Below are positions 5,322 through 33,460 of a DNA stretch of 36,553 bases, in pieces. The stretch lies in the NCBI GenBank assembly GCA_019116445.1, contig DXBP01000001.1:1-36553 (forward strand), read 5' to 3'. A model generated the notes under the pieces. It had not been told where the DNA came from, did not search any database, and worked only from the letters and a program-made list of their open reading frames with translations. Both the position numbers and the translations under genes were made by a program. Numbering within the stretch: position 1 is the stretch's first letter; each line of letters begins with the position of its first letter. This DNA is from Candidatus Gemmiger excrementigallinarum (GTDB lineage: Bacteria > Bacillota > Clostridia > Oscillospirales > Ruminococcaceae).

Positions 5322-5372
5322 GAAAAAGGGGAAAACGGGCAAAAAAACGGAGCGTTAGTGTATGCTAACATC

Positions 5373-5401: not shown

Positions 5402-5447
5402 AAACTTAGCTGTGAAAAGCCTAACAATATGCAAAGGAGAGAAAATT

Positions 5448-6152: not shown

Positions 6153-6172
6153 GAGAGGGAGGAACACACACT

Positions 6173-7171: not shown

Positions 7172-7197
7172 TCTCCTTTGCAAACTGCATAATTTCT

Positions 7198-7232
7198 GCC
7201 GCCGTCCGGTGTTTGCCGGGCGGCGGCTTTTT
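7198..7232 (+). terminator. Intrinsic terminator of the Fe-S operon
   Basis: A GC-rich stem (GCCGCCGtCCGG with CCGGGCGGCGGC) is followed by a T5 run, 27 bases after the GGGtGRT stop codon. Confidence 0.85.
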
Positions 7233-7266
7233 GCGTTTGAAAGATTTGTAAACTCTGTGGCAATAC

Positions 7267-7295
7267 TTGCCCAACAGATTAGCAGGGTGTATAAT
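7267..7295 (+). promoter_or_regulatory. Promoter of the WYL regulator gene
   Basis: TTGCCC (7267-7272), 17 bases, TATAAT (7290-7295). The expected transcript start near 7302 rules out the upstream TTG start at 7267 and supports ATG 7333. Confidence 0.75.
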
Positions 7296-7332
7296 AGGAC
7301 TGTATATGGTAAAAATGGGGAGGGACTGCGCC

Positions 7333-8328: not shown

Positions 8329-8357
8329 TTGCAAAGCCACGCAAAATGTGGTATGCT
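8329..8357 (+). promoter_or_regulatory. Candidate promoter of the glycan operon
   Basis: TTGCAA (8329-8334), 17 bases, TATGCT (8352-8357), beginning right after the WYL stop codon and about 80 bases before the operon's first start codon. Confidence 0.55.
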
Positions 8358-8440
8358 GATACGATACACTTTCCTTGCTTTGGCAGGGAAGGGGGCCGCT
8401 GCGGCGGCACAGAACCAATCTCGTAAGGAGGGCACCGCCG

Positions 8441-9853: not shown

Positions 9854-9878
9854 GCCCACTGGAAACCGGGTGAGAGTT

Positions 9879-11033: not shown

Positions 11034-12082
11034 ATCCCATCGTCATCAACGGCACTGTGCTGTGCGATAACATTACCGGAATTCCGCGCTACGTGTATGA
11101 AACGGTCACCCGGCTGGATGCCCTGCTGGAGGGCACCGGCCTGGATGTGCGCATCGCTTACCGCGATGACGGGCGTCCCATCCACCTGCCGGAACTGAAA
11201 AACATTCAGCTGGTGCCGCTGAAAGCCGTGAAGTATTTTTACAATATGGCGGTGCTGCCGTCCTATCTGCGGCGCAACCATGCGTTTTTTGTGGGTCTGG
11301 CCAGTGATATGCTCATGACCCGGCGCAGCGTGGTGGTGCTGCACGACATCCGGCCGTTGGTCATGGATACCGACCGGGGCTTCTTCCGCTTCAAGTTCTG
11401 GGTGCACTGCCTTTCCACCAAATGGTTTGCGCAGAAGGTCTATACCGTCAGCGAGGACCAGCGCCGGCTGATCAGCCAAAAGCTGGGCATTCCCATGGAC
11501 AAGATCGGCGTGACCTACAACGGCTGGGAGCACATGCGCAAGGTCGTGCCGGATGAGGGCATTTTTGATAAGCTGCCCGGTGTGACCAAAGGGGAATACT
11601 TCTACGCTCTGGGCAGCCTTGCCAAGCACAAGAACTTCAAGTGGATCCGGGAGGTCGCCCGCCGCAACCCCGACAAAACCTTTGTGGTGGCAGGCGGCAA
11701 GGACCTGCGGGCCTTTGGCGACGATGCCGAGGCGAAGGACACCGCCAACGTCTTTTATCCGGGCTATGTCAGCGACGAGGAAAACGCTGCGCTGATGAAG
11801 CACTGCAAACTCTTCCTGCACCCGGCGGTTTTTGAGGGATTCGGCATCCCGCCGCTGGAAGCATTGTCGCTGGGGGCACCCATTGCCCTGGCCCGGGCCA
11901 GCTGCCTGCCGGAACTGTACGGCGACACCGCGCGGTATTTTGACCCCAATGACTATGAGGTGGACCTGGATGCCCTGGCGGCCCAGCCGGTGGCTCCGCC
12001 CGACGAAGTGCTGGAAAAGTACAGTTGGGACAAGACCGCAGCGTTCTGGCTGGAACAGATCAAGAAATACGCAGAGGCATAA
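11030..12082 (+). CDS. Glycosyltransferase family 4
   Basis: A second GT-B fold glycosyltransferase, 350 residues. Landmarks are NITGIPRYVYETVTRL near the N-terminus, VLHDIRPLVMDTDRGFFRFK, TVSEDQRRLISQKLGIP, FYALGSLAKHKNFKWIREVA and the GT4 E-x7-E segment FEGFGIPPLEALSLGAPIAL. It uses a TTG start that shares four bases with the preceding stop codon; an aaggagg site lies seven bases before it, so the unusual codon is credible. It probably adds the next sugar of the repeat unit. Specificity is not visible from sequence. Confidence 0.88.
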   Translation: MNPIVINGTVLCDNITGIPRYVYETVTRLDALLEGTGLDVRIAYRDDGRPIHLPELKNIQLVPLKAVKYFYNMAVLPSYLRRNHAFFVGLASDMLMTRRSVVVLHDIRPLVMDTDRGFFRFKFWVHCLSTKWFAQKVYTVSEDQRRLISQKLGIPMDKIGVTYNGWEHMRKVVPDEGIFDKLPGVTKGEYFYALGSLAKHKNFKWIREVARRNPDKTFVVAGGKDLRAFGDDAEAKDTANVFYPGYVSDEENAALMKHCKLFLHPAVFEGFGIPPLEALSLGAPIALARASCLPELYGDTARYFDPNDYEVDLDALAAQPVAPPDEVLEKYSWDKTAAFWLEQIKKYAEA

Positions 12083-12137
12083 TTTTATAAAATAGTACGG
12101 ATTGTATTTAAAATTCCACCGGAGAGGACAGAAATCT

Positions 12138-14537
12138 ATGATCATTGTGGCATTGCTTTTGACGGCCGTTGTGGCATTGGTTTTTGGCCTGCTCCCCGGT
12201 GCAGTCACCCGGCGGTCCATGCAGGTGCGGGATCTGGTCTGGGGGGCAGGAATATGGCTGGCCGTCTGGCTGTTCAGCCTGTGTGCCTACCACAGGCCGG
12301 GCATTACCGTGGGATTTGATCTCTTCCGGCTGGCGGCCATTACGGCCATGACCGGATGGGCCGGGCTCTGCGCGGCGGGGCTGCGGATTTTCGGCCGGAA
12401 GGGTGCGCGGTATGTGCTGCCGATCCTGGTGGTTCTGGCGGCGGGGACTGAACTCTTCGTCTGCAACGTGACCTACTTCAACACCCACAGTTATCAGCCC
12501 TTCCAGCTTATGGACTACCTGGACTCCAACGTCAATGTGGGGCGTGGGGCAGGCACCTATACGCTGGATGAGGACCGTTCCTATCTGCGTTTTCTGGAGA
12601 TCGGGCAGCCGATCTACAATCTGCATATTGACAACATCACCAACGACGACACCGATCTTTTGCATGCCGACAGCACTTTTACCTTTGCTATCCAGGCAAC
12701 CGATGAAGCCAACGGTTCCTTGATCGACTTCGGCAGCTGGGAAGTTTCGCTGCAGGCAGACCGCACTCACACCATCAGTCTGGATCTGACCGGCAAGGTG
12801 GATACGCTTACGCTCAAGGCCAACGGGTACGGCAGTGCCCATGCGACGTATCCCATTGCTTTCACCATTACCGGCATCACGGCGAATACGCCGCGGCCAT
12901 TGCAATGGTCGATGCTGCGGTTTGTTGCCTTATGGCTGCTGTTTGGCGCGCTGTATCTGCTGCGGCCCGGCAGTGGATTGTGGCAGCGGCGCTGGCTGGC
13001 CGGCAACGTCTGTGACCGTGCAGCAGCTGCGGTACTGGGTGTGGTTCTGGCCGGATTCGTTGTGGTGGTGCCGTTCTGGCAGCCCGGCAACAGCGGTCTG
13101 GCTACCGCAACCTATAATACCGCCTACTGGGACGGGGAGAGCACCGTCAGCTTTGTTTATCAGCAGTACGGCGCCCTGGCCCACAGCCTGCTCAACGGGC
13201 GGCTGGACCTGGAGGCAGATCCTCCCGCGGAACTGGTCGCCATGGAAAACCCCTACGATGCCGCAGCACGGGACACGCTGAACATCCAGGGTGGGCTCTG
13301 GGACCATGCCTACTACAATGGCCGGTACTATGTCTACTTCGGCATTGTGCCGTGCCTGCTGTTCCAGCTGCCCTTTGAGGCGATCACCGGCATCCAGAAC
13401 CTGGCCTACGCACCCTGCATGGTGATTCTGGGGCTGGTTTTCCTGCTCAGTTGTTTTGGTATTCTGAGCCAGGTGGTGCGGCGCTGGTTCCCGCAGGCTT
13501 CCACAGCCGCCTATCTGCTGTGCGTATCGGCTCTGGTGCTGGGAAGTCAGCTGTATAATTTGCTGGAGCGTCCTTATATTTACGAATATGCCATTCTCTG
13601 CGGTGCGGCGCTGCTGATGCTGGGAATCTGGTTCTGGCTGGCTGCGGCCGCCACACCGGAACACCACGGCGGTGTACTGACGGTACGCCTGGCCCTGGGC
13701 AGCCTTTGTGTGGCGCTGGTGGCCGGATGCCGCCCCCAGATGGTGCTGTTTGCCTTGGTTGCGCTGCCCATTTTTTGGAATCGGTATATCACCCGCGGCC
13801 GTCTGCGCAGCCGCGCCGGTGTGCGGGATGCCGTGGCTTTCCTGCTGCCGGTGCTGGTGGTGGCAGCAGGGCTGATGTGGTACAACTATGCCCGGTTTGG
13901 CTCCCCGTTTGATTTTGGCGCCAATTACAACATCACCGGCAACGATATGACCAAACGCGGCTTCAACGTGGTGCGCATGGGCCCGGCGGTATTTACCAGC
14001 CTGCTGGATCTGCCGCGGCTGAAAAGCGTTTTCCCGTATCTGCAGGAGGTGGATGTAACCACCAATGCGGTTATCCGCACCATCAGCGAAAAATTCTGCG
14101 GCGGTATGCTGGCGGCCACGCCTTTTACCTGGGCGTTGCTGCTCCCGGCGCTGCCCCTGGCCCGGCGCAGCCTGCATCGCCGCCGTGCGGTGGCAGCCCT
14201 TGTGTACGGATCGGTGGCGGCCATGTTGCTGATCACGGTGGTGGACTGCCAGATGGCCGGTGTGCTGTACCGGTATCTGATGGATTACAGCCCGGTCCTT
14301 CTGCTGGGCGCCGCCCTTTGCTGGCTGCTGGCCGAGAGCGGTCTGGCCCGGCGGGCCGCTGGCGGGGAAGCCTTGGCGGTATCGCTGCTGCCTGTGCTGC
14401 GCATCGGCATGGCAGGGGCGCTGGCCTGGGCGGTATTTTACCGCTTCTGCACGCTGTTTGCGATGGAACCCTGGCTGCAGGGAATGAATCCGTCGCTGTA
14501 TTATACTGTAAACCGCCTGGTTCAGTTCTGGATGTAA
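12138..14537 (+). CDS. Large GT-C-like polytopic membrane protein with extracytoplasmic domain
   Basis: A protein of 799 residues with about 12-14 hydrophobic segments. After three or four N-terminal helices, a soluble stretch of about 140 residues (about 110-250) is rich in β-prone sequence (WEVSLQADRTHTISLDLTG, TLTLKANGYGSAHATYPIAF) and looks like a β-sandwich outside the membrane. The remaining helices include a second loop with AYWDGESTVSFVYQQYGALA. Size, topology and place in a glycosyltransferase operon suggest a GT-C glycosyltransferase that uses a lipid-linked sugar, but the catalytic Asp/Glu of that fold was not identified with confidence. ATG 12138 has ggagagg ten bases upstream; the longer reading from 12102 does not. 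No specific family name is claimed. Confidence 0.7.
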   Translation: MIIVALLLTAVVALVFGLLPGAVTRRSMQVRDLVWGAGIWLAVWLFSLCAYHRPGITVGFDLFRLAAITAMTGWAGLCAAGLRIFGRKGARYVLPILVVLAAGTELFVCNVTYFNTHSYQPFQLMDYLDSNVNVGRGAGTYTLDEDRSYLRFLEIGQPIYNLHIDNITNDDTDLLHADSTFTFAIQATDEANGSLIDFGSWEVSLQADRTHTISLDLTGKVDTLTLKANGYGSAHATYPIAFTITGITANTPRPLQWSMLRFVALWLLFGALYLLRPGSGLWQRRWLAGNVCDRAAAAVLGVVLAGFVVVVPFWQPGNSGLATATYNTAYWDGESTVSFVYQQYGALAHSLLNGRLDLEADPPAELVAMENPYDAAARDTLNIQGGLWDHAYYNGRYYVYFGIVPCLLFQLPFEAITGIQNLAYAPCMVILGLVFLLSCFGILSQVVRRWFPQASTAAYLLCVSALVLGSQLYNLLERPYIYEYAILCGAALLMLGIWFWLAAAATPEHHGGVLTVRLALGSLCVALVAGCRPQMVLFALVALPIFWNRYITRGRLRSRAGVRDAVAFLLPVLVVAAGLMWYNYARFGSPFDFGANYNITGNDMTKRGFNVVRMGPAVFTSLLDLPRLKSVFPYLQEVDVTTNAVIRTISEKFCGGMLAATPFTWALLLPALPLARRSLHRRRAVAALVYGSVAAMLLITVVDCQMAGVLYRYLMDYSPVLLLGAALCWLLAESGLARRAAGGEALAVSLLPVLRIGMAGALAWAVFYRFCTLFAMEPWLQGMNPSLYYTVNRLVQFWM

Positions 14538-14562
14538 AGGCAAGAAAGAGAGGTCCGCGTTT

Positions 14563-15501
14563 ATGGACAAAATAGCTGTTTTGATTCCCTGTTACAACGA
14601 GGCCAAAACGGTGGAAAAGGTCGTTACGGATTTCCGGCGCGTACTGCCCGAGGCAACGGTCTACGTTTACGATAACAACTCTACCGACGGCACAGCGGAA
14701 CTGGCCGCTGCTGCCGGCGCGGTGGTGCGGCATGAATACCAGCAGGGCAAAGGCAACGTGATGCGCCGGATGTTCCGGGAAATCGATGCCGAGGCCTATG
14801 TGCTGGTGGACGGGGATGATACCTACCCGGCGGAAGCTGCCCCCGAGATGGTGCGTGCCGTTACCGAGCGCCAGGCTGATATGGTGGTGGGGGACCGGCT
14901 TTCCAGCACCTACTATACGCAGAACAAGCGCCCGTTCCACAACTTCGGCAATGATCTGGTGCGCTTTTGCACCAACAATCTGTTCGGCGGTAAAATCAAG
15001 GATATTATGACGGGCTACCGCGCCTTCAGCTTCCAGTTCGTCAAGACTTATCCGGTGCTGTCCCGCGGGTTTGAAATCGAAACCGAAATGACCATTCACG
15101 CCCTGCAGCGTCACATGCAGGTGGATAACGTCATCATCGAATACCGCGACCGCCCCGAAGGCTCCGAGAGCAAACTCAACACCTACTCCGACGGATTCAA
15201 AGTGCTGGGCACGATTGTGCGGCTGTTCAAAAACTATCGCCCCTTTGCCTTTTTTGGCGTGCTGGCGGCGGTGCTGGCGGTGTTCGGTATCGGTTTTATG
15301 ATCCCGGTGGTCAATGAATATTTCCATACCGGGCTGGTGCCGCGCTTCCCGACGCTCATCGTCTGCTGCTTTGTACTGGTGGCGGCACTTCTGCTTTTTG
15401 TTTCGGGCGTGATCCTTTCCAGCCAGCTGGCAAAGGACGCCCGGGACTTTGAATTCCAGCTTCAAACCGTGCAGCATTGGCAGCGCACGGCACAGGAATG
15501 A
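14563..15501 (+). CDS. Glycosyltransferase family 2 (polyprenyl-phosphate glycosyltransferase-like)
   Basis: A 312-residue GT-A enzyme. The N-terminal catalytic domain shows IAVLIPCYNEAKTVEKVV, YDNNSTDGTAEL and the metal-binding VLVDGDDTYPAEA. The segment IKDIMTGYRAFSFQFVKTYP and the acceptor loop FEIETEMTIHALQ match the dolichyl-phosphate-mannose-synthase-like branch. Two C-terminal transmembrane helices (about 225-250 and 262-288) anchor it. Enzymes of this type load a sugar onto polyprenyl phosphate, which would feed a GT-C enzyme such as its membrane neighbours on each side. The stop codon overlaps the next start (ATGA), indicating translational coupling. Confidence 0.9.
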   Translation: MDKIAVLIPCYNEAKTVEKVVTDFRRVLPEATVYVYDNNSTDGTAELAAAAGAVVRHEYQQGKGNVMRRMFREIDAEAYVLVDGDDTYPAEAAPEMVRAVTERQADMVVGDRLSSTYYTQNKRPFHNFGNDLVRFCTNNLFGGKIKDIMTGYRAFSFQFVKTYPVLSRGFEIETEMTIHALQRHMQVDNVIIEYRDRPEGSESKLNTYSDGFKVLGTIVRLFKNYRPFAFFGVLAAVLAVFGIGFMIPVVNEYFHTGLVPRFPTLIVCCFVLVAALLLFVSGVILSSQLAKDARDFEFQLQTVQHWQRTAQE

Positions 15502-17825
15502 ACACCACGGCCCGCACCCGGGCTTTTTTGAAGATCCACCCGCTGTTCGGGGCGGTCTTTCTGGTGGAACTGTTGTTTGTGGCGGCACTGCTGGCGGGGT
15601 CTTTCCGCCCCCTGGCGGAAGTTTCCATCCCGCTGGAGAGCATGACCCAATCGGAGGACAGCACGTCGGTTTCCCAGCCGGTCACCCTGTCCTCCGGCGG
15701 GTACCGCATCACGGTGTGCTATCAGGCGGCGTTCCCTGAAGAGCCGGAACGCACGGATGGCACGGCGGTGGCGACGCTGGACTTTTCTTCCGCCGGCAAT
15801 CCCGCGGCGGTGCAAAGCGATGCCATCACCCTGACCGACACCTTTTCCACCGTTACCGCCCGCCTTTGGGTGAGTACGGCGTCCACGGTCAGTGACCTGA
15901 CGCTGCGAGTGACCGAAACGCTTGCCGAGGGACAGACCTTTGCGCTGCAAAGTGTTACCCTGACGGAGCAGCCTGTCTGGCGGGTGACCTCCCTGGTGGG
16001 ATGGCTGCTGCTGTTTGCGGTGGCGGATGCCTTGCTGTCACTGCTGCTCCTGGGGCGTACCCCCCGTGCGCCGCGCTGCGGCTGGGGTGTGGTATTGCTG
16101 CTGGCCGGGGGAATCGTGCTGGCCAGCCTGCCGTATTGCGCGGATTTCCTGTACACCGGGCATGATCTGCGCTTTCACTGTTACCGCATCTGGGCTGCGG
16201 CCCAGGCACTGGCGGACGGGCAGTTCCCGGTGCGTATGTTCACCGATGGTTTTCACGGCTACGGCGCCGCTACACCGCTGTATTACTGTGACCTGTTCTT
16301 GTACATTCCCGCGCTACTGTACAACGCATTTTTGCCGCTGCAAACCTGCTACCAGATTTACGTGCTGCTTGTCAACACGGCCACGATGCTGCTGGCCTAC
16401 TACAGTTTTGCGCGCATCGGGGAACATCGCCTGTACGGGGCGGTGGCGGCCTTCGCCTATACGCTGTGCGCCTACCGCCTGACCAACATGATGATCCGCG
16501 CCTCGGTGGGGGAATATACCGCCATGACCTTCCTGCCGCTGGTGGCGCTGGGGGCCTGGGCCATTGCCCGGCACAAGCGCCCGGCGGCGCGGGACTGGCT
16601 GCCCCTGGGATTGGGTATGGCCGGCATTGTGCAGAGTCATCTGCTTACCACGGAACTGGCGGCCATCTTTTTGGCACTGTTCTGGATTTGCAATTTGCAG
16701 GTCATGGTGCGCCCGCCCCGGCTGCTGGCAGCCCTGAAGGCGGTGCTGACGGCCGTGGGACTGACCGCCTGGTTCCTGCTGCCCTGTATGCAGACCCTGA
16801 ATGGCCAGAAAATCATGATCAGCGATGTGCACCCGGCACCGCTGCAATCCACCGGCACCTATCTGATCCAGCTGCTGGGATTTTTTGGCGTTTCCAGCGG
16901 CAGTTCCGGGGCCGGAACTGCCGGGGATATGCCCCTTACCCTGGGGCTGGCGGGATGCCTGGCCCTGGGCCTGGCTTTGTGGTGCTGTCTGCGGCGGGAC
17001 TGCTGGCAGAAAACACCGGATACGCAGCGGCGGTGGTTGGGGCTGCGCGGCAGTTTGGCGTTGTGCCTGCTGGCCATGTGGATGTCCACCACGTCCTTCC
17101 CGTGGGACTGGCTGGCCAACAAACTGCCGCAAAAAATCGTGGATATTCTGCTCAAACCCCAGTTCAGCTGGCGGTATCTGGCGGTTGCGGTGGTGCTGGC
17201 AGGGGTCATTTCCGTGCTGGCCCTTCGCCTGACGGAGGAACTGGCACCCCGCCTGGCCCGCGGAGTGGCGGTAGCGCTGGTGGCGGCGACGCTTTTGTAT
17301 GTGGGGACCTTTTACCGCGACTACGCTTACAGTAAGGATACCATCACACTGATCAGCACCGAAACCGTCACCGACTTCCCGTACGAAACCATGGGCTATG
17401 ATTACCTGCCGGCGGGGGCGGATCTTGCCACCTTTGATCGGGTGCAGGCAACCACCCGGGACGAGGATGTGACCGCCGTCTGGCTGGGGCAGGGGAACGT
17501 AGAGTGCCAAAACGATACGGATTCCACGGCGGAGGTGGAGCTTCCGCTGCTGGCTTACCAGCATTACACGGCCCGGGACGCCGCAACCGGCGAGCTTTTG
17601 CCGCTGACGGAAAACGAGCAGCATTGCCTGCGCGTTACACTGCCTGCGGGGTACCGCGGCACGGTACAGGTGCGTTATATGCCGCCCTTTGCCTGGCGTA
17701 TAGCGGAACTGGTTACGCTGGCGACGACGCTGGGCCTGGCCGGCTGGGCCGTGCAGGGGTACCGCTGCCGCAGACGGGAAAGAATACAAGAGGAAACCGT
17801 TCAGGAGGATTTTATTCATGTATGA
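15498..17825 (+). CDS. Large PTPS-related/YfhO-like membrane protein, probable GT-C enzyme
   Basis: A protein of 775 residues with about 12-14 hydrophobic segments. TM1 is followed by a β-rich outer domain (about 35-160; SSGGYRITVCYQAAF, TLDFSSAGNPAAVQSDAITL), then the transmembrane core. The motif YTGHDLRFHCYRIWAAAQAL with FHGYGAATPLYYCDLFLYIP corresponds to the conserved acidic/His loop of PTPS-related (PF10131) and YfhO-type proteins. A second soluble β domain lies near the C-terminus (about 615-730) before a last helix and charged tail. Related proteins modify cell-wall polymers with lipid-carried sugars. The start overlaps the GT2 stop by four bases, and the end overlaps glf by eight. 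The substrate is inferred only from context. Confidence 0.78.
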   Translation: MNTTARTRAFLKIHPLFGAVFLVELLFVAALLAGSFRPLAEVSIPLESMTQSEDSTSVSQPVTLSSGGYRITVCYQAAFPEEPERTDGTAVATLDFSSAGNPAAVQSDAITLTDTFSTVTARLWVSTASTVSDLTLRVTETLAEGQTFALQSVTLTEQPVWRVTSLVGWLLLFAVADALLSLLLLGRTPRAPRCGWGVVLLLAGGIVLASLPYCADFLYTGHDLRFHCYRIWAAAQALADGQFPVRMFTDGFHGYGAATPLYYCDLFLYIPALLYNAFLPLQTCYQIYVLLVNTATMLLAYYSFARIGEHRLYGAVAAFAYTLCAYRLTNMMIRASVGEYTAMTFLPLVALGAWAIARHKRPAARDWLPLGLGMAGIVQSHLLTTELAAIFLALFWICNLQVMVRPPRLLAALKAVLTAVGLTAWFLLPCMQTLNGQKIMISDVHPAPLQSTGTYLIQLLGFFGVSSGSSGAGTAGDMPLTLGLAGCLALGLALWCCLRRDCWQKTPDTQRRWLGLRGSLALCLLAMWMSTTSFPWDWLANKLPQKIVDILLKPQFSWRYLAVAVVLAGVISVLALRLTEELAPRLARGVAVALVAATLLYVGTFYRDYAYSKDTITLISTETVTDFPYETMGYDYLPAGADLATFDRVQATTRDEDVTAVWLGQGNVECQNDTDSTAEVELPLLAYQHYTARDAATGELLPLTENEQHCLRVTLPAGYRGTVQVRYMPPFAWRIAELVTLATTLGLAGWAVQGYRCRRRERIQEETVQEDFIHV

Positions 17826-18924
17826 TTATCTGATCGTCGGCGCCGGCCTGTTCGGCGCGGTATTTGCCCACGAGGCAACGGCAGCCGGCAAGCGCTGCCT
17901 GGTCATCGACAAGCGGGACCACATCGCCGGCAACATTTATACCGAGGACATCGAAGGCATCGCCGTGCACCGGTATGGTGCACACATCTTCCACACCAAC
18001 AACAAGGAAGTGTGGGACTATGTCAACCGTTTCGCGACCTTCAACCGGTATACCAACTCTCCGGTGGCCAACTATAAGGGCGAGCTGTACAATATGCCCT
18101 TCAACATGAACACCTTCAGCAAGATGTGGGGCGTCATCACCCCTGCGGAAGCCCAGGCCAAAATCGAGGAGCAGCGCGCCGCCCATTACACCGAGCATCC
18201 CCAAAACCTGGAAGAACAGGCCATCAATCTGGTGGGCCAGGATATTTACGAGAAGCTCATCAAGGGCTACACCGAAAAGCAGTGGGGACGTCCCTGCACG
18301 GCACTGCCGGCGTTCATCATCAAGCGCCTGCCGGTGCGTTTCACCTTTGACAACAACTATTTCAATGCGCTGTACCAGGGCATTCCCAACGAGGGGTATA
18401 CGGCGCTGGTGGCCAACCTGCTGGATGGCATCGAGGTGCGCCTGAACACCGACTACCTGGCTGACCGTGAGGCACTGGACACGCTGGCAAAGAAGGTCGT
18501 TTATACCGGCCCCATCGATGCTTACTTCGACTACAAGCTGGGGGCACTGCAGTATCGCAGCGTCCGATTTGAAACCGAAACGCTGGATATGCCCAACTAC
18601 CAGGGCAATGCGGTCATCAACTATACCGATGCCGAAACGCCCTACACCCGCATCATCGAGCACAAGCATTTTGTATTCGGCTCCACCGAGCCGGGCACCA
18701 AGACGGTCATCAGCCGGGAATATTCCGCCGAGTGGAAACCCGGCGACGAACCCTACTACCCGGTCAACGACGAGGAAAACGGCGCCCTGTATGCACGGTA
18801 TAAGGAGCTGGCGGACGCTCAGCCCAATGTGCTGTTCGGCGGCCGCCTGGGCGAATACAAATACTATGATATGGACCGCGTCATTGAGGTGGCGCTGGAC
18901 CGCGTGCGGGCTGAACTGGCCTGA
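17818..18924 (+). CDS. glf: UDP-galactopyranose mutase
   Basis: A flavoenzyme of 368 residues that converts UDP-galactopyranose to UDP-galactofuranose. The N-terminal dinucleotide-binding fold reads YDYLIVGAGLFGAVFAHEA. The signature YGAHIFHTNNKEVWDYVNRF follows, and later GYTEKQWGRPCTALPAFIIK and the conserved QYRSVRFETE and YTRIIEHKHF blocks are present. Length and order match bacterial Glf. ATG 17818 has aggagg nine bases upstream and overlaps the preceding gene. It is the last gene of the operon before a terminator. Its presence implies that the glycan made here contains galactofuranose; a dedicated galactofuranosyltransferase is not recognisable. Confidence 0.96.
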   Translation: MYDYLIVGAGLFGAVFAHEATAAGKRCLVIDKRDHIAGNIYTEDIEGIAVHRYGAHIFHTNNKEVWDYVNRFATFNRYTNSPVANYKGELYNMPFNMNTFSKMWGVITPAEAQAKIEEQRAAHYTEHPQNLEEQAINLVGQDIYEKLIKGYTEKQWGRPCTALPAFIIKRLPVRFTFDNNYFNALYQGIPNEGYTALVANLLDGIEVRLNTDYLADREALDTLAKKVVYTGPIDAYFDYKLGALQYRSVRFETETLDMPNYQGNAVINYTDAETPYTRIIEHKHFVFGSTEPGTKTVISREYSAEWKPGDEPYYPVNDEENGALYARYKELADAQPNVLFGGRLGEYKYYDMDRVIEVALDRVRAELA

Positions 18925-19098: not shown

Positions 19099-19755
19099 AT
19101 GACCAAAATTGCCGCGTCGATCCTGTCGGCGGACTTTGCCAACCTGCAGCACGACTGTACCCGTCTGCTGCAGGAGGGGGTCGATCTTTTGCATTTTGAC
19201 GTAATGGATGGCCACTTTGTGCCCAATATCAGCTATGGCGCGCCGGTGCTGCAATGCCTGCATAAGGCGCTGCCCGACGCCTATTACGATGTACACCTGA
19301 TGATCAGCGACCCGGCCCGGTATGCGGCGGATTTCGCCAAAGCAGGCGCCGGTCTGATCACCTTCCATCTGGAAGCGGTGCCCGATACGGCAGAGGAAGT
19401 GATTGCCGCCATCCGGGCTACCGGCTGCCAGGTCGGCATCAGCATCCGCCCCGGCACCCCGGTGGAGGCCGTGTTCCCGTATCTGGGTGTGGTGGATCTG
19501 ATCCTCGTCATGAGCGTGGAACCCGGCTTTGGCGGGCAGAAGTTCCTGCCCGGCACCCCCGGACGTCTGGCCGCCCTGGATGCCGAGCGCAAACGCCGCG
19601 GCTGCACCACCTTGTTGGAGGTGGACGGCGGCATCAATGGGGAAACCGGCCCCCTGTGTGTACAGGCCGGTGCTGACTGGCTGGTGGCCGGCAGCTCGCT
19701 GTTCCATGCCGAGGACCCGGCTGCCATGGTACGCCTGCTCCACGGACAAGCCTGA
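19099..19755 (+). CDS. rpe: Ribulose-phosphate 3-epimerase
   Basis: A TIM-barrel enzyme of 218 residues that interconverts ribulose 5-phosphate and xylulose 5-phosphate in the pentose phosphate pathway. Family landmarks are IAASILSADFANL at the start, LHFDVMDGHFVPN with metal-binding His/Asp, YDVHLMISDPARY, LILVMSVEPGFGGQKFLP, and the phosphate-binding EVDGGIN and GADWLVAGSSLF. All expected catalytic residues appear present. A gaggga RBS precedes ATG 19099. It heads an operon whose next gene, 26 bases on, is RnfD-like. Confidence 0.96.
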   Translation: MTKIAASILSADFANLQHDCTRLLQEGVDLLHFDVMDGHFVPNISYGAPVLQCLHKALPDAYYDVHLMISDPARYAADFAKAGAGLITFHLEAVPDTAEEVIAAIRATGCQVGISIRPGTPVEAVFPYLGVVDLILVMSVEPGFGGQKFLPGTPGRLAALDAERKRRGCTTLLEVDGGINGETGPLCVQAGADWLVAGSSLFHAEDPAAMVRLLHGQA

Positions 19756-19781: not shown

Positions 19782-20801
19782 ATGCCCAATCGTATGAAAA
19801 TTGAACGCAGCGAAAATTACGACTATTATCGTGATCTGCTGTGGTGTTCCATTCCGCTGATCGGAATGTCCTGGTACTATTACGGACTGCGCCCGGTCCT
19901 GCTGCTGCTGACCGGACTGCTGGTGGCCTATCTGTGTGACTGCGCCCTGGCGCCGCTGCACGGTGCGGGGTATCATCCCCATGAACCTTCCAGCGAATGT
20001 TTTGCCGCCCTGATCGTGCTGATGATGCCGGCCACCGTGCCCTATGCGGTGGTGGTTGCGGCGGTGATCGCGGCGGTGCTGGTAAAAGAAGCCTTCGGCG
20101 GGGAAGGGCACTATCCCTTCCACCCGGCGGCGGTGGGCATGGCGGTGGCCGGTATTTCCTGGCCGGATTCCGTGTATCGTTACCCGGCACCGGGGAACTG
20201 GCTGCCGGTATTCGGTGCAAGCGACGGTGCCCTGGTAGAAGGCATGAATGCCACGCTGCGCAACGGCGGTCTGCCCAGTGACAGTACCATGAATCTGCTC
20301 ACCGGCAATGTGTCCGGCGGGTTGGGCATTACGGCGGCGCTGGTGGTAATGGCCTGCGGCCTGTTTTTGCTGGTCCGTGGCCATGTAAAACTGTCGGTGC
20401 TGGTGCCGTTTTTGCTCTTCTGCATCGGCTTGCCCTGGCTGCTGCCGCAGCTCAGCGAGCTGCCGATGTTCAGCTGGCCCTGGGAATTCGTGCGCCAGCG
20501 CATCTATCTGGAAAAATATGTCATTCTCTCGGGCACGGTGCTGTTCGGCGGCCTGTTCCTGATCTGTGAGCCTGTTACAATGCCCAACCGTACCAGCAGC
20601 CGCATTTTGTACGGCACGGCGCTGGGTATTGCGACCCATGCTTTCCGGGTATTCAGCCCTTACGAGAGCGCAGCCTGCTTTGCGCTGCTCATTGTGGGTG
20701 CCATTCCCGAATGGCTGGATCTGGTCAGCCACCGCACCGAACGCATCCGCTTTATGAGGAAGGAGGAACGGCGCCTTGCCCAATTCACAAAACCGGAATA
20801 A
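19782..20801 (+). CDS. RnfD/NqrB-like membrane protein with altered flavin-site context
   Basis: An integral membrane protein of 339 residues with about nine hydrophobic segments. The RnfD family is recognisable from GEGHYPFHPAAVGMA (usual GxNPFNPA-like block), LLTGNVSGGLGITAALVVMA (usual FLGNxGGSxGE block) and the C-terminal ICEPVTMPNRTSSRILYG. In RnfD/NqrB a threonine in an S/T-G-A-T-P-L context carries covalent FMN. Here the best-placed segment reads MNATLR (Thr about 158), so the threonine may be kept but its surroundings are changed. The gene overlaps the following RnfE-like gene by 26 bases. Without RnfB, RnfC and RnfG next to it, a normal Rnf role is uncertain. Confidence 0.8.
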   Translation: MPNRMKIERSENYDYYRDLLWCSIPLIGMSWYYYGLRPVLLLLTGLLVAYLCDCALAPLHGAGYHPHEPSSECFAALIVLMMPATVPYAVVVAAVIAAVLVKEAFGGEGHYPFHPAAVGMAVAGISWPDSVYRYPAPGNWLPVFGASDGALVEGMNATLRNGGLPSDSTMNLLTGNVSGGLGITAALVVMACGLFLLVRGHVKLSVLVPFLLFCIGLPWLLPQLSELPMFSWPWEFVRQRIYLEKYVILSGTVLFGGLFLICEPVTMPNRTSSRILYGTALGIATHAFRVFSPYESAACFALLIVGAIPEWLDLVSHRTERIRFMRKEERRLAQFTKPE

Positions 20802-22074
20802 CCGCCGTAAGCGGGAAGAACATTCCGAAACGCTGATCATTCCCCATATCACCAAAGAAATGCTGGAGAAAGCACGTGAGATGGCGGCGCAGGGCGCTTC
20901 CCGTGCCGAGATCGAACAGGCTATCGCCCAGATGCAGGGCACCGCGCTGCCGCATACCGAACCGGCTGCCCAGCCCAAACCCCAGGCGGAACCCGATGCC
21001 CACCGCATCATCCCCACCAGCCGCAAGCGCCTCACGGATGAAGAACGCAAAGCGATGCTGGAACAGATGCGTCAGGAACAGGAGCGCCGGGAAGCAGAAC
21101 GCCGGGAGGAGGCCACCCGCCGCACCACCCGTCCGGCCTGGCATTTCCCGGCAGCGAAACCCGCAGCCCCGGTGGAACCGCGCCCGGCTCCGAAACCGGA
21201 GAAAACGGCGGAACCCCGTGCCGATGCCACGATTCAGATGCCTGCCGCGCAGCCTGCCCGGCAGCCTGAACCCCAGGAAGAACCCACCCGCACCATGGAA
21301 CCGGTGCGCCCGGAGCCGGAAAAAGCGGCAGAGCCGGCGGCACAGCCGGTCAAACCGAAGGCGGCTCCCCAGGAACCCCAGCCGGCCCCCGCGCCCAAGC
21401 GCCACGCCGGTTTGCTGCGCAGCCGGGCCGAGGCGGAATCCGATCTGAATGAAAAGATCCGCAGCGATCATATCTGGCTTTCCAACCCCGTGATGGTGCG
21501 CGGGCTGGGCCTGGCCCCGGTGGTGGGCGCCGCCCTGGATGGCGAACGCGCCCTGATCCTCTGTGTGGCCAGCCTGCTGCTGATCACCTTCACCCGGGTG
21601 TTGGCGGTCGCGGTGTGCCATATCTCCAAAAACCGCTTCCGTCCCATCATTTACTGCTACGCCGCTGCGCTGCTGTATATCCCCGTGTACATTCTGCTCT
21701 ACGAACTGTTTGGCAACGACCTGACCATGCTGGGCATCTATCTGCCGATCCTCATTGTGGAACCGGCCATCGTCAAGCGGATGGAATTCACCGAACTGGA
21801 ACCCATTGGGGATGCCTGGCGGCACGGCTTCAACAACGGCCTGGGTATGTGCGTGGCACTGCTCATTGTGGGCTGCCTGCGTGAGTTCCTGGCCTCCGGT
21901 ACGGTGTTCGGCCACGTGGTGCTCCACGCCGCCCTGCTTCCGTTGGCAGCACAGCCTGCGGGTGGTTTTGTACTGGTAGGTATCATCGCCGCGGTCTGGT
22001 GTGCGGTGGTCAATGCCTACACCGAATATAAGCGGGAGGAGGTGCGTCGCCTGTATGCCGGCCGTAAACATTGA
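20776..22074 (+). CDS. RnfE-like membrane protein with long disordered N-terminal extension and no cluster cysteines
   Basis: A protein of 432 residues from a TTG start with aggagg upstream. Residues 1-230 are not part of RnfE: a helix-prone segment (MLEKAREMAAQGASRAEIEQ), a highly charged helix (about 85-115) and a Pro/Ala/Glu-rich linker. The C-terminal 200 residues are an RnfE/NqrD membrane domain with about six helices, aligning from SNPVMVRGLGLAPVVGA through IYLPILIVEPAIVKRMEF to NNGLGMCVALLIVGCLREF. In canonical RnfE the GLCP and TNC cysteines help hold an intramembrane [2Fe-2S] cluster; here these positions are Ala 247 and Ala 331. It overlaps both neighbours, so the three rnf-like genes are probably co-translated. 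Membership of the Rnf/Nqr family is clear; the function is not. Confidence 0.8.
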   Translation: MPNSQNRNNRRKREEHSETLIIPHITKEMLEKAREMAAQGASRAEIEQAIAQMQGTALPHTEPAAQPKPQAEPDAHRIIPTSRKRLTDEERKAMLEQMRQEQERREAERREEATRRTTRPAWHFPAAKPAAPVEPRPAPKPEKTAEPRADATIQMPAAQPARQPEPQEEPTRTMEPVRPEPEKAAEPAAQPVKPKAAPQEPQPAPAPKRHAGLLRSRAEAESDLNEKIRSDHIWLSNPVMVRGLGLAPVVGAALDGERALILCVASLLLITFTRVLAVAVCHISKNRFRPIIYCYAAALLYIPVYILLYELFGNDLTMLGIYLPILIVEPAIVKRMEFTELEPIGDAWRHGFNNGLGMCVALLIVGCLREFLASGTVFGHVVLHAALLPLAAQPAGGFVLVGIIAAVWCAVVNAYTEYKREEVRRLYAGRKH

Positions 22075-22708
22075 GTTTGTCCCCCTGATGCGCGGTGTGC
22101 TGGAATTTATCAGCTATATGGGCCTTGCCATCTTCGCGGAAAACGTCATCCTGGCCCGCGCCCTGGGCGTCACCCGCCTGCTGAAACTCGTTCCCGACCA
22201 CAAAGCCCAGGTCTGGGATTTCAGCATTCCGTTCCTTATGGTAATGGGCTTTTCCGCGCCGCTGGGATGGGCGGTGCACAATCTGTTTTTCCCCTGGCTG
22301 CGCGGCTATCTGCCCGAATGGCTGCCGGCATCGGCGCTGCGTCCGCTGGTGTATCTGACCTGCGGATCGGCAGCGATGATCATTACCTGGCTTCTGCTGT
22401 TCCTGCTGCCGCGGCGCCAGCGTCAGGCCTGCCAGGCACAGATCACCCTGGGCGGCTGCAGCACCGCAGTGCTGGGTACCCTGTTGATCTGCGCCAACCA
22501 GAACTATACCATGATGCAGAGCATTGCGTTCGGAATTGGCAGCGGACTGGGTTATGTGTTCATCATCTTTATTGTGCGGGAGGGCCGTCGCCGTCTGCGC
22601 AGTAAAGATGTGCCCGCCATCTTCCAGGGATTGCCCAGTTCTTTGATCTACATCGGCATCCTGTCCCTGGCAATTTACGGTCTGGTGGGCCATGCCGTTG
22701 TCTTGTAG
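22055..22708 (+). CDS. RnfA-like membrane protein lacking cluster cysteines
   Basis: A membrane protein of 217 residues with six hydrophobic segments. The RnfA/NqrE family is recognised by FAENVILARALGV (usual VNNxVLxxxLGLCP), CSTAVLGTLL (usual TTNCAVLG), QSIAFGIGSGLGYVF and the closing DVPAIFQGLPSSLIYIGILS. The two cysteine positions expected to bind half of the intramembrane [2Fe-2S] cluster read Thr 40 and Thr 137; one Cys (135) lies two residues away from the second. ATG 22055 sits 20 bases inside the RnfE-like gene, after a gggaggagg site. Hydrophobic topology is intact, so it looks like a maintained protein and not a decaying one. Confidence 0.8.
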   Translation: MPAVNIEFVPLMRGVLEFISYMGLAIFAENVILARALGVTRLLKLVPDHKAQVWDFSIPFLMVMGFSAPLGWAVHNLFFPWLRGYLPEWLPASALRPLVYLTCGSAAMIITWLLLFLLPRRQRQACQAQITLGGCSTAVLGTLLICANQNYTMMQSIAFGIGSGLGYVFIIFIVREGRRRLRSKDVPAIFQGLPSSLIYIGILSLAIYGLVGHAVVL

Positions 22709-22728: not shown

Positions 22729-24015
22729 ATGGCACTTCCATGCTTTGTGGCTGCGGATATTCTTCTTCCGTCTGCCGGTACGCCGCTGGACCCCTGGGCC
22801 TGCATTGCCGTTGATCAGTTCACTTCCCAACCGGAGTACTGGCAGCGCGCCGAGGAACTGGCCAAGGACCACCCCAGTACGCTGCACATCGTTTTGCCGG
22901 AAGCCTACCTGGGCACCCCCCAGGAGGAGCAGCGCCTGCAGGATATCCGGGATACGATGGAACGCTACCGCACCCAGGTGCTTACGCGCCAGGTGCACGG
23001 GTATGTTTATGTGGAGCGCACCCAGATGGACGGCAGCATCCGGCAGGGCCTGATCGGTGCCGTGGACCTGGAAGCCTACGATTACACACCCGGCAGCCAT
23101 ACCGCCATCCGCCCCAGCGAGAAAACCGTGGTGGAGCGGATTCCGCCGCGGCTGAAAGTCCGCCGCGGGGCGCTGTTGGAAACACCCCACGTGATGATGC
23201 TGGCCGATGACCCCGAAAAGACGCTGATCGAGCCGGTAGGGGACTGCAAGGCGGAACTGCCTCTTCTGTACGATGGGAACCTGATGCTGGGGGGCGGGCA
23301 TCTGCGCGGCTGGGCCGTGGAGGACCCGGCGCTGATCGCCCGGATCGATGGGGCGCTGGCTGCCCTGGCGGATCCCAAAGCCTTTGCCCGGCGCTGGCCG
23401 GCAGTGGCAGGGCAGACGCCCATGGTGCTGGCCGTGGGGGACGGCAACCACAGCCTGGCTACGGCCAAGGCCTACTGGGAGGAACTGAAACCCACCCTGA
23501 CCGATGAACAGAAGCAGAATCACCCGGCGCGCTGGTGCCTGGCAGAAGTCTGCAACGTCCATAGCCCGGCCATCGAGATCGAACCCATCCATCGGGTGGT
23601 ATTCGGTGTTACAGCCAAAGAATTGTATGAAGATCTGGACCGCTGGGACAAGGCACAGGGCTCTTGCACCACGCCGTCCGGCCAGCGTTTCCGCCTGGCG
23701 GACCGGCAGGGGGAAGTGGCCGTGGCACTGGAAAATCCCCCGGCCCCGCTGACGGTGGGCAGTATCGAGGCCTTCCTGGCTGAATGGCTGCCCCGGCACC
23801 CCCAGGCCAGTGTGGATTACATCCACGGTGCATCCACGGCAATGGCACTGGCAGCCCGTCCCGACCGCCCGGCAGCGGCCATTCTGCTGCCGGATTTCGA
23901 CAAAGCGGATCTCTTCCGCGGCGTAGTGCTGGGCGGTGTGCTGCCGCGCAAGACTTTCAGCATGGGTCATGCCGAGGAAAAACGTTATTACAATGAGTGC
24001 CGAGTGATCGGTTAA
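22729..24015 (+). CDS. DUF1015 family protein
   Basis: A soluble protein of 428 residues. Recognisable DUF1015 blocks are DPWACIAVDQFTSQPEYW near the start, RGALLETPHVMMLADDPE, the highly conserved MVLAVGDGNHSLATAKAYWE (about residue 235-255), CNVHSPAIEIEPIHRVVFG and the C-terminal KTFSMGHAEEKRYYNECR. The biochemical role of the family is not firmly established. The gene follows the RnfA-like gene by 20 bases with a taggagg RBS and is part of the same operon. Confidence 0.88.
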   Translation: MALPCFVAADILLPSAGTPLDPWACIAVDQFTSQPEYWQRAEELAKDHPSTLHIVLPEAYLGTPQEEQRLQDIRDTMERYRTQVLTRQVHGYVYVERTQMDGSIRQGLIGAVDLEAYDYTPGSHTAIRPSEKTVVERIPPRLKVRRGALLETPHVMMLADDPEKTLIEPVGDCKAELPLLYDGNLMLGGGHLRGWAVEDPALIARIDGALAALADPKAFARRWPAVAGQTPMVLAVGDGNHSLATAKAYWEELKPTLTDEQKQNHPARWCLAEVCNVHSPAIEIEPIHRVVFGVTAKELYEDLDRWDKAQGSCTTPSGQRFRLADRQGEVAVALENPPAPLTVGSIEAFLAEWLPRHPQASVDYIHGASTAMALAARPDRPAAAILLPDFDKADLFRGVVLGGVLPRKTFSMGHAEEKRYYNECRVIG

Positions 24016-26779: not shown

Positions 26780-28510
26780 TCAGGAATGGGCGGCGGCTTT
26801 CTCGCTGTTTTTCTCACTGGCGGCATACACGCGCAGCGAGTTGACCACGATGATCACACCCAGCGCGATGAGCAGGATCGCCAGGATCAGCTGCAGACCC
26901 TGCATCAGGAAGGTGGCGGTACCGGCGGCATAGGCCTGCACACAACCTACCAGAATCTGTACCAGGGCCGTGAAGGTCACGCAAAGCATGATGATGAGCG
27001 GCGGGAACAGCATCTTGTTGCTGCGGCCGGTCACCTTCAGGAAGACGCAGAGGGTTACCAGAACCAGGGCGCTGAGCAGCTGGTTGGCGGAACCAAACAG
27101 CGGCCAGATGTTGTTGTAACCGATCTTGGCCAGAACGAAGCCCAGCGCCAGGGTGATGATGGTGGAGAAATAGGTGTTGCAGAACAGCTTGCGCCAGCCC
27201 TCGGCGTGTTCCATATCGTCCACGCTGAACAGTTCCTGGAAGCTCATGCGGCCGATACGGGCCACAGCGTCCAGACTGGTAAGGGCCAAGGCGGAAACGC
27301 ACATGGTCATAAAGACGGTGGCGGCATACACGGGCACGCCGAACATCTCAAAGAATCCGGCCACGCCGTTGCTGAACACCTGGAACGGGGTGCCGGCGGC
27401 GGGGGTGCCGTCCGCAGCAGCGGAAGCGCCGGCCACGCAAAGGGCCAGCACGGCCAGCAGGCTTTCCAGCACCATGGCGCCGTAACCGACCTTGAGCATA
27501 TCCTTTTCATTCTCCACGGTCTTGGAGGAGGTGCCGGAAGAAACCAGGCTGTGGAAGCCGGACACTGCACCGCAGGCTACGGTGACGAAGAGGATGGGGA
27601 ACAGGCTGCCGCTGATGAGGCTGCCGTTTTCGCCCTTGACGACGTTCCAGGCGGTGAAGGCGTGCAGATTCATGGTGGGGTGAGCCACCAGCAGACCCAC
27701 GGCCGCACCGGCGATCATGAAGATGAACATGAAGGTGGTCATGTAGTCACGGGGCTGTTTGAGCAGCCACATGGGCAGCACCGCCGCGAAGAAGATGTAC
27801 ACGAAGGTGATGTAGATCCAGCCCTCTTTGGCCAGGATGATGGGGCAGTTGGAGCCGATGACGAAGGACAGCACGATAAAAACGATGCCCAGCACCGCTT
27901 CCTTCCAGCCGCTGAAGTTGTACTTTTTCTGGATCAGGCCAAACACCACGGCGAACACCATGAACATGATGGAAACCATGCCCGCGGCGCCGTTGGTGGT
28001 GGCGGCAGCGGACAGCGAGGTCACGCCGTCTACGGTGGTGTAGGCGTTGAAGGTGTCGGCCACCATGTCGGCAAAGGCAGCGATGACCAGCAGGGTGAAC
28101 AGCCAGCAGAACAGCAGGAACAGGCGGCGGCCCAGTTTGCCGATGTATTTTTCAATCAGCATACCCATGGATTTGCCGTCATTCTTCACGCTGGTATACA
28201 GCGCGCCGAAGTCGGTCACGGCGCCGAAGAAGATGCCGCCCAGCAGCACCCACAGCAGCACCGGCAGCCAGCCGAAAGCGGCGGCCTGGATGGCGCCGGT
28301 AACGGGGCCCGCACCCGCAATGGAGGAAAACTGGTGGCTGAACACAGTCCAGCCGTTGGTAGGTACGTAGTCTTTGCCATCTTCCAGCCGCACAGCAGGA
28401 GTTTTGGCATTGGGGTCAACGCCCCAGCTCTTGGCGATCCGGCGGCCATACCCGGCGTACGCACATACCAGGCAGACTGCTGCGATCAGGACGATCACAA
28501 GCGTATTCAT
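26780..28510 (-). CDS. cstA: CstA-family carbon starvation / pyruvate-peptide transporter
   Basis: A membrane protein of 576 residues with about 15 hydrophobic segments. The CstA signature is clear: NGWTVFSHQFSSIAGAGPVT followed by GAIQAAAFGWLPVLLWVLLG and VTDFGALYTSVKNDGKSMG. Later blocks SGFHSLVSSGTSSKTVENEK and ALTSLDAVARIGRMSFQEL are also family features. Known members in enterobacteria import pyruvate or peptides during starvation; the substrate here is unproved. It is shorter than the E. coli protein (about 700 residues), as is usual in Firmicutes. ATG 28510 is preferred because gagggag lies eight bases before it; the in-frame ATG at 28531 precedes that site. Confidence 0.92.
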   Translation of the reverse strand: MNTLVIVLIAAVCLVCAYAGYGRRIAKSWGVDPNAKTPAVRLEDGKDYVPTNGWTVFSHQFSSIAGAGPVTGAIQAAAFGWLPVLLWVLLGGIFFGAVTDFGALYTSVKNDGKSMGMLIEKYIGKLGRRLFLLFCWLFTLLVIAAFADMVADTFNAYTTVDGVTSLSAAATTNGAAGMVSIMFMVFAVVFGLIQKKYNFSGWKEAVLGIVFIVLSFVIGSNCPIILAKEGWIYITFVYIFFAAVLPMWLLKQPRDYMTTFMFIFMIAGAAVGLLVAHPTMNLHAFTAWNVVKGENGSLISGSLFPILFVTVACGAVSGFHSLVSSGTSSKTVENEKDMLKVGYGAMVLESLLAVLALCVAGASAAADGTPAAGTPFQVFSNGVAGFFEMFGVPVYAATVFMTMCVSALALTSLDAVARIGRMSFQELFSVDDMEHAEGWRKLFCNTYFSTIITLALGFVLAKIGYNNIWPLFGSANQLLSALVLVTLCVFLKVTGRSNKMLFPPLIIMLCVTFTALVQILVGCVQAYAAGTATFLMQGLQLILAILLIALGVIIVVNSLRVYAASEKNSEKAAAHS

Positions 28511-28560
28511 GATTTTGCTCCCTCTTTCCATATAATAGATTTACAATCGCTTGCTTCATT

Positions 28561-30187: not shown

Positions 30188-31642
30188 TTACCCCTCCTTA
30201 TTACTCTGACAGGTACTGCACAGGGCCTGGGCGGCGGTGCGCAGACTTTCCCAGGTGGCGGCATCCACCACGCCCAGGGTAGGCAGCCCGGCGGTCAGCT
30301 GGTAATTTTCCAGCGCGTCCTGGGTGGCGGCATCCAGCTCGCCGGTTTCCGGTACAAATAGATACCCCTGGTCCACCGAGGCGATCAGATTCAGCCAGCG
30401 CTGCACCTGCAGTACGGCCGGGCCGGAACTGCCCAGCGTCAGGGCCGAGGCCGGCCAGACGCCGTCCGGTTCAGGGGCAGCGGCTGCCGGGTTCACTTCA
30501 GCCAAAGCCTGTGCCGCTTTCAGAAAAGCGTTCCAGTCGGCAGTGGTGACTTCCCCGGTTTCTGGCAGACCGAAGTACCGCTGGGCACTGCGTACCGTGA
30601 GTTCCAGGTCTTGCGTGAAAACGCTGCTGGGGGTAGTGCTGCCCAGGAAGTTGATTTCCGGCAGCCATTGGCCCAGGAATAGCAACAGGCGGTCCAGCCG
30701 CAGAACAGCCGCCCCGGAGTCACCGACCTGCAGCGTGGAAGCAGGGGCCGGCAGTGAGGCAGTGCGCACCACAGGGCCGCTGGTGGCCAGATTTTGCACC
30801 GCTTCATACAGGCTGTTCCAGGTCTGGCGGCCCACCACGCCGTCCACCGTCAGTCCGGCCCGGCTCTGCCAGGCCTTCACGGATTTGGTGGTAGCTGCAC
30901 CGAAGATGCCGTCCACCGTCACCGAAGGAATATCGCTGTAATAGGCCGACAGCCGCCGCAGATAGTACTGCACCGCCCGTACGGCGGTGCCCCGGCTGCC
31001 TTCCCGCACCGTGGTGGTGAACTGACCAGGAGCTACATTGGCGTCCACAATCTCGTTGGCTACGGCCAGTGCCACTTCGTTGAGCTTGTTCCAGGTGGCG
31101 CGCCCCACAATCCCGTCGGCGGTCAACCCGAACAGGCTCTGGAAAGCGGTCACGGCTTTCTCGGTGGCGGCTCCGAAATTGCCGTCCACGCTGACGGCAG
31201 CCAGGGACGTGTAGTTGTCCGCCGCCAGACGCAGCCAGAACTGCACCAGCCGTACTTCCATGCCGGTATCGCCCCGCCGCAGCACAATGCCGGGCCAGGC
31301 AGTGCCGCCCAGATCACTCTGCATATCCAACCAGGCGGCATACAAGGCATCCCAGGTGGCCTGCCCCACGATGCCGTCGGCGGTCAGCCCCTGCTCCTGC
31401 TGGAAAGTTTTTACCGCCTTTTCGGTAGCCGCACCGAAGTGCCCGTCTACGGTAAGATCGGGCAGGGCACTGTTGAACTGGGCTAGTTCCGAAAGCCAGA
31501 ACTGTACCTGTTCCACTTCGCTGCCGGTGGAACCGCGTTTGAGCACCACGCCCGGCCAGGTGCCGGAACTTTCGGTGCCGGTGGCGGTCTCGCCCTCGCT
31601 GGTCAGTTCGGCCAGGTCCTTGACACTGACGTAGATGTAACT
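30188..31642 (-). pseudogene. Multi-repeat peptidoglycan-binding protein gene, 5' end removed by an insertion
   Basis: The open frame contains about five PG_binding_1-type repeats, each about 70 residues and spaced about 90. The first three are well kept (VDGHFGAATEKAVKTFQQEQ, VDGNFGAATEKAVTAFQSLF, VDGIFGAATTKSVKAWQSRA) with LTADGIVGxATW ends, and two later ones are more divergent. The frame stays open upstream of the GTG at 31549, through sequence encoding YIYVSVKDLAELTSEGE, up to about 31642, where it meets a stop in foreign DNA. There is no ATG/GTG/TTG with an RBS in that stretch. The N-terminal part is therefore missing, displaced by the mobile element. Whether the remainder is translated from GTG 31549 is doubtful. 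Confidence 0.75.
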
Positions 31643-33291: not shown

Positions 33292-33460
33292 TTCTATTCC
33301 TTTCTGATTCGGAAGCGGCAAACGCAAGGCTCAGCTTGGCCGCTTCATACATTTCTTTGGTAATCGCGCCTTGCTGATACAGTTGTTCGTTAATCTGGCG
33401 TTCCATTGCCAAGGCGATTTTGTTCCGCAATTCGCGGCGAATGCTGTCGGGCTGAGACAT
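33281..33460 (-). CDS. Small SHOCT-like protein
   Basis: A 59-residue protein from ATG 33460 (gaggtg RBS six bases upstream): MSQPDSIRRELRNKIALAME, then a SHOCT-like helical tail QLYQQGAITKEMYEAAKLSL. SHOCT tails are short oligomerisation or binding modules. Its stop overlaps the recombinase start, so the two are translationally coupled, an arrangement I recall from other Clostridial recombinase loci. A longer in-frame start at 33529 (MKEYCINRNIGQGST...) is possible but has a weaker RBS. Confidence 0.6.
   Translation of the reverse strand: MSQPDSIRRELRNKIALAMERQINEQLYQQGAITKEMYEAAKLSLAFAASESERNRNEI

Follow-up and report, generated by a model that had tools for sequence, protein, structure and literature searches.

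A conserved Rnf-like D-E-A membrane trio without cluster ligands in Gemmiger and its relatives

Background

The Rnf complex is a ferredoxin:NAD+ oxidoreductase. A stretch of DNA from Candidatus Gemmiger excrementigallinarum (GenBank assembly GCA_019116445.1, contig DXBP01000001.1) contains three overlapping plus-strand genes, at 19782-22708, whose products resemble RnfD, RnfE and RnfA (here D', E' and A') but lack the residues expected to bind the cofactors of that complex. Such a natural, cluster-free core raises a direct question: what do D, E and A do without electrons arriving by the known route? The stretch, hereafter the window, comprises an entire contig of 36,553 nucleotides (C36) from a draft genome of 2.38 Mb that is 83% complete. 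No earlier description of a cysteine-free or three-gene Rnf was found in the open-licence literature.

In the Rnf complex of C. tetanomorphum, the [2Fe-2S] cluster ligands are RnfA Cys25 and Cys113 and RnfE Cys26 and Cys109, which are termed invariant in the description of that complex (PMC9588780). The site at which ions cross Rnf, and the manner in which crossing is tied to electron flow, is disputed; RnfD and the RnfA-E pair are the candidates discussed in section 18 of a review (PMC12174285).

Results

A first, sequence-only reading of the window had proposed three consecutive, overlapping relatives of RnfD, RnfE and RnfA, and this was borne out by Pfam, NCBIfam and alignments to solved chains. 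D' (339 amino acids; 19782..20801) matched Pfam PF03116 (NQR2_RnfD_RnfE; E 1e-42) and, by profile, the RnfD chains of PDB entries 8ahx, 7zc6 and 9eri, in agreement with its predicted model. E' (432 amino acids; 20776..22074), the gene for which overlaps that of D' by 26 bases, matched Pfam PF02508 (Rnf-Nqr; E 4e-25) over residues 230-404 and RnfE of 7zc6 (E 1e-11), and a predicted model of its membrane domain agreed. A' (217 amino acids from the ATG at 22055; 22055..22708) also matched PF02508 (E 4e-18), as well as RnfA of 9eri (E 2e-9); its open reading frame extends upstream to a GTG at 22001, and GGAGGAGG sits directly upstream of the ATG at 22055. NCBIfam returned rnfD-, rnfE- and rnfA-type matches for the three proteins, all far under the curated cut-offs. 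D' was 89% identical to its counterpart in Gemmiger formicilis An723. E' begins with a Pro/Ala/Glu-rich extension of approximately 215 amino acids (20776-21420), which is present in Gemmiger relatives too. An N-terminal extension was also seen in a stripped E protein from another family (L168, family f7, 505 amino acids), unrelated in detail to that of E'.

The positions of the four cluster ligands were fixed by alignment to the solved chains and to the canonical RnfA and RnfE of the same genome. None is a cysteine in the window. The first RnfE ligand is replaced by Ala247 of E' (21514..21516, plus strand; LGLA for LGxC) and the second by Pro330 (21763..21765, plus strand; VEP for VNC); the RnfA ligands are replaced by Thr40 (22172..22174, plus strand; LGVT for LGIC) and Thr137 of A' (22463..22465, plus strand; CST for TNC), numbered from the ATG at 22055 and equivalent to Thr58 and Thr155 if counted from the GTG at 22001. 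The sequence-only reading had identified Ala247, Thr40 and Thr137 correctly, but had placed Ala331 at the second RnfE ligand, which is the neighbour of the residue that aligns there. No new cysteine that might rebuild the cluster site was seen at that site; three were gained within the membrane helices of D', where they may provide another metal site.

A profile built from 30 D' proteins located 71 loci in named genomes, of which 70 had a complete D-E-A trio, the other (L102) being cut by a contig end. Across these 70, cysteine was retained at the first and second E positions and the first and second A positions in 0, 0, 0 and 16 loci respectively. The residues found instead were restricted: Ala (62), Thr (6) or Val (2) at the first E position; Pro (63), Gly (4), Gln (2) or Arg (1) at the second; Ser (58), Thr (9) or Asp (3) at the first A position; and, beside the 16 cysteines, Thr (28), Ser (24), Val (1) or Asn (1) at the second. 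With comparable replacements in a further 70 D-E-A loci, ligand loss in the window exceeds what chance would produce.

A further loss, beyond those listed originally, concerned the threonine motif of RnfD to which flavin mononucleotide (FMN) is covalently attached; this is missing from D'. The column corresponding to the FMN threonine held Thr in 0 of 71 loci, and the list of canonical FMN motifs was matched by only one of 71 D' segments. A threonine did occur two residues past this column in 43 of the 65 sequences matching the pattern (six of the 71 did not match), the remainder having Val, Ile, Ala or Ser. Allowing for misalignment, comparison of these segments indicates that a threonine is not fixed at the FMN site among relatives of D'.

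Other features of D' were kept. Phe255 and Phe259 align with F338 and F342, the gate residues of NqrB (PMC12174285, section 18), and these columns were aromatic in at least 70 of the 71 relatives at each position (50 Phe and 21 Tyr at the first; 66 Phe, 4 Tyr and 1 Leu at the second). The aromatic pair does not consistently mark Rnf, because canonical D proteins of the wider locus set often have Leu at the first position. The three new cysteines (C52, C192 and C299) were kept in 66, 65 and 69 of the 71 relatives, but varied more in the wider set. A predicted model of D' (from 36 sequences) had a mean predicted local distance difference test score (pLDDT) of 87.7 and matched RnfD best (template modelling score (TM) 0.76 to 8ahx_D); the model of the E' membrane domain (35 sequences; pLDDT 88.8) matched RnfE best (TM 0.73-0.77). 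Identity to the Rnf chains in these structural matches was approximately 19-25%, and on these models D' and E' are predicted to adopt Rnf folds. The D' model also produced a weak match to the urea transporter and AmtB fold (3me1, 2ns1), which was not significant (E 0.04-0.05).

Library scans of the window proteins found no RnfB, RnfC or RnfG next to the trio, consistent with the original description, nor did genes for NqrA, NqrC or NqrF adjoin it. The trio is homologous to Rnf but lacks three of its defining features that were tested: the four cysteines, the FMN motif and the presence of RnfB, RnfC and RnfG alongside.

The window's genome does contain a separate, canonical-looking C-D-G-E-A-B operon, on contig C14, with two Rnf-Nqr matches, one RnfD match and one FMN_bind match; the FMN_bind match of this genome lies within that operon. 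Its A and E proteins retain all four cysteines and its D protein has a SATPL motif. Its B and C genes were assigned from their iron-sulfur motifs and from BLAST among the fetched loci. Canonical-like RnfA (defined by E below 1e-30) was found in 243 of 297 genomes of the family, and in 36 of 41 genomes with fetched trio loci. In the five others (G052, G133, G170, G043 and G235; 66 to 94% complete), the trio's own genes provided the sole Rnf-Nqr matches, and two of these genomes (G170 and G043) had no match to FMN_bind.

The trio was widespread among relatives. Its hosts included Gemmiger, Faecalibacterium (among them F. prausnitzii ATCC 27768), Subdoligranulum, Ruthenibacterium, Fournierella, Pygmaiobacter and Anaerofilum. 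In a class-wide sample, seven of 291 genomes (that of the window included) reached E 1e-70, a level that would miss weaker family members, and all belonged to the window's order; in an order-wide sample, some D match was found in 358 of 394 genomes, canonical RnfD being counted among these.

The stepwise loss of C, G, B and the cofactor sites might be taken for a decaying paralogue en route to disappearance, as might the E' extension, where the ratio of nonsynonymous to synonymous substitution rates (dN/dS) was 0.27 relative to a near relative (G220), higher than for the cores. Yet in the same comparison dN/dS was 0.06 for D', 0.08 for the E' core and 0.08 for A' (0.035 for the neighbouring rpe gene), showing that purifying selection acts on all three trio genes. 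Stops were flagged inside four of 30 located E' matches (L018, L019, L021 and L028); these matches reach the N-terminal part, which is poorly conserved, and no stop interrupts E' in the corresponding named records (L089, L087, L116 and L088). No frameshifted relatives were seen. With low dN/dS and an intact trio in 70 of 71 named loci, decay is disfavoured and was considered very improbable, as the sequence-only reading had also held in denying simple decay.

Further loci were selected by D' profile score and genus rather than at random; 28 were fetched, two additional 100-base stretches being left out, followed by another 20. Families are given here as codes, of which f1 was equated with Ruminococcaceae, and the order with Oscillospirales, from named matches. 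Stripped loci occurred in seven family codes (f1, f3, f5, f7, f9, f15 and f24), and locus types formed a series from full canonical operons, through C-D-E-A, to D-E-A alone. Thirteen fetched loci were of the C-D-E-A type without B or G; rpe lay 5' in 12 of these and DUF4015 3' in eight. In all 13, the nucleotide loop of the C protein (C'; GxGGAGFP) was degenerate as judged by eye. Two genomes of family f7, genus g132 (G326 and G344; 95 and 97% complete), had a stripped C-D-E-A locus as their only Rnf-Nqr pair; because FMN_bind had no match in either genome, the stripped complex there cannot borrow RnfG. G360, of the same genus, has canonical Rnf. In genus g163 of family f3, four operons (L174, L209, L210 and L211) had C, D, E, A and B, and three of them G, but at least three of the four cluster ligands had been lost; these nearly full, ligand-poor operons possibly represent an intermediate stage. 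Five of six f24 loci (L222, L223, L224, L226 and L227) retained the first E cysteine.

As Rnf and NQR share the canonical ligands, these were taken as ancestral, and the number of losses was estimated from trees. In a tree of C and D (37 rows, 739 columns), stripped operons of f3 and f7 lay beside canonical ones of their own families; well-supported branches forced three changes, and a single change was enough in 0% of 200 bootstrap trees. A tree of D, E and A (69 rows) agreed, with support of 82 and 86 for the f3 and f7 placements (82 to 100 over both data sets), and placed the canonical operon L169 as sister to the main clade (support 100). Trees of E and A conflicted with these, with every stripped pair falling on one side (support of 100 in the first trees), and continued to group these pairs under a mixture model with the ligand columns removed (99/99). 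This would be expected from a single ancient loss, with a stripped E-A pair of one origin passed to f3 and f7 by exchange. However, when all stripped rows were held as one clade this was rejected on the C and D data by the approximately unbiased test (p-AU 5e-7), and the E and A set has long branches and uneven composition. With the added f3 and f7 loci, a single origin of all stripped loci had the C+D and D+E+A data against it and E+A still for it. We regard it as rather improbable, and favour three or more losses, in which case convergence of E and A probably misled the E+A trees.

Discussion

The absence of cluster ligands, of the FMN motif and of RnfB, RnfG and RnfC from the locus means that electrons should not take the known path through the trio; since selection keeps all three proteins, the core presumably does something else. 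RnfA-E has been compared to symporters, and RnfD to ammonium and urea transporters (PMC12174285, sections 16 and 18); the same review likens RnfD to the urea transporter and AmtB fold. Given these likenesses, the trio is most naturally read as a gradient-driven transporter or a gated channel. By such analogy, D'-E'-A' is proposed to be an Rnf-derived core that lacks the known electron path and most likely transports an ion or small solute or acts as a gated channel, a proposal in which our confidence is about even. In its favour count the loss of the ligands and the FMN motif, the low dN/dS, the modelled folds of D' and E', the aromatic gate pair, and the two genomes (G326 and G344) with a stripped complex only. 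The original suggestion of a repurposed Rnf core, kept without the normal electron path, is supported by the selection observed, the completeness of named loci and the separate canonical operon; the roles named with it (ion channel, transporter or scaffold) are as tentative as the one proposed here.

Under this proposal, D', E' and A' would form one complex. The E'-A' pair, which in Rnf is an hourglass of half-helices, might, even with no cluster, switch between inward and outward states, while D', as a relative of the urea/ammonium transporter fold, would supply a gated path. A gradient of Na+ or H+, with canonical Rnf of the same cell as a possible source, could power movement, or else the solute's own gradient could do so.

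Several observations weigh against a transporter, which is a predicted role: one ligand is retained in some relatives and two of the four in L226; three cysteines have been gained in D' and are nearly invariant in its named relatives; and C' retains two CxxCxxCxxxC [4Fe-4S] motifs in 13 of 13 C-D-E-A loci, where, for that reason, a redox role would fit. The last two points, together with the threonine that 43 of 65 sequences have close to the FMN site, also favour a re-wired redox complex, in which electrons enter by other ligands (the D' cysteines, a non-covalent flavin or the C' clusters) and leave by another route. Against this, the D-E-A loci have no carrier protein, the nucleotide loop of C' is degenerate, the new cysteines are not conserved throughout the wider set and two trio genomes have no FMN_bind match; such re-wiring was judged quite unlikely.

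Coexistence with canonical-like RnfA in most trio genomes would also suit a scaffold or regulator, which binds or tunes canonical Rnf, or another envelope system, and moves nothing itself. A sensor-kinase gene upstream in 26 of 41 loci, of which the one tested had WalK as its best NCBIfam match, points the same way, but it was absent from all five loci of the window's genus. Moreover, the five trio genomes with only their own Rnf-Nqr matches offer no canonical partner in their incomplete assemblies, and gate aromatics would need no keeping in a scaffold. This role was thought unlikely.

Returning to the proposed transporter, a broader and more tentative claim is possible but falls short of being probable: that within one bacterial order the electron-driven Rnf was converted at least three times to an electron-free D-E-A transporter and that, in cells with both, canonical Rnf makes an ion gradient and the stripped form spends it.

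Of the known systems, Rnf itself (RnfABCDGE; PDB 7zc6, 9eri, 8ahx) is homologous to the trio in D, E and A, has these genes in the same order and is predicted to share their folds where modelled; it differs in having RnfB, RnfC and RnfG, the cluster ligands and the FMN motif. Na+-NQR (PDB 7xk3, 8a1t) is homologous through NqrB, NqrD and NqrE, and its NqrB gate positions are aromatic in D', but the trio has neither the NqrA, NqrC and NqrF partners nor the ligands. By sequence score Na+-NQR is more distant than Rnf for D' and E', while RnfA of 9eri and NqrE of 7xk3 score alike for A'. The NQR/RNF-like flavinylated systems described in PMC8238504 have a membrane domain homologous to NqrB/RnfD outside the classical complexes; as presented there, they have a flavinylated partner and an NAD-binding domain, neither of which was seen at the trio locus.

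The flanking genes were considered as a guide to function and rejected. Upstream lies rpe, encoding ribulose-phosphate 3-epimerase (19099..19755, plus strand; Pfam E 1e-63), a conserved neighbour outside the complex that was present in 40 of 41 fetched trio loci and listed 5' of D' in 71 of 71 named loci; a strict distance test was passed in 57 of the 71, the others probably failing through far-upstream choices of start. Downstream is a DUF1015 protein (22729..24015, plus strand; Pfam E 1e-58). In many relatives DUF4015 comes first 3' of the trio, starting less than 500 bases from A' in 41 of 71 named loci; it was not found in the window's own genome, which is 83% complete. Both rpe and DUF4015 also flank the full canonical operon L169, and DUF4015 lies 3' of other canonical operons (L212, L213, L217 and L218), so that these neighbours give no pointer to a new function.

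Upstream of rpe (loci L042-L077), a response regulator gene was present in 25 of 41 loci, in addition to the sensor-kinase genes described above. Elsewhere in the window, 2386-18924 is likely a cell-surface polysaccharide region, with major facilitator superfamily, Wzy_C-type, sugar transferase, glycosyltransferase and UDP-galactopyranose mutase genes; 6173-7171 matched the uncharacterised GGGtGRT family very strongly (E 1e-185). A CstA carbon-starvation protein is encoded at 26780-28531 and a serine recombinase at 31603-33327, near the contig end, both on the minus strand.

Conclusions

A broad family of Rnf relatives exists without the cysteines called invariant in Rnf, in gut bacteria such as Faecalibacterium prausnitzii. 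Its members call for caution in annotation: the trio matches Rnf families, and metabolic reconstruction could wrongly count an energy-conserving Rnf. If the conversion from electron-driven to electron-free complexes is true, the trio would be a new type of transporter and a natural separation of Rnf's transport from its redox machinery. The family suggests that the membrane part of the Rnf pump can do a useful job without electrons.

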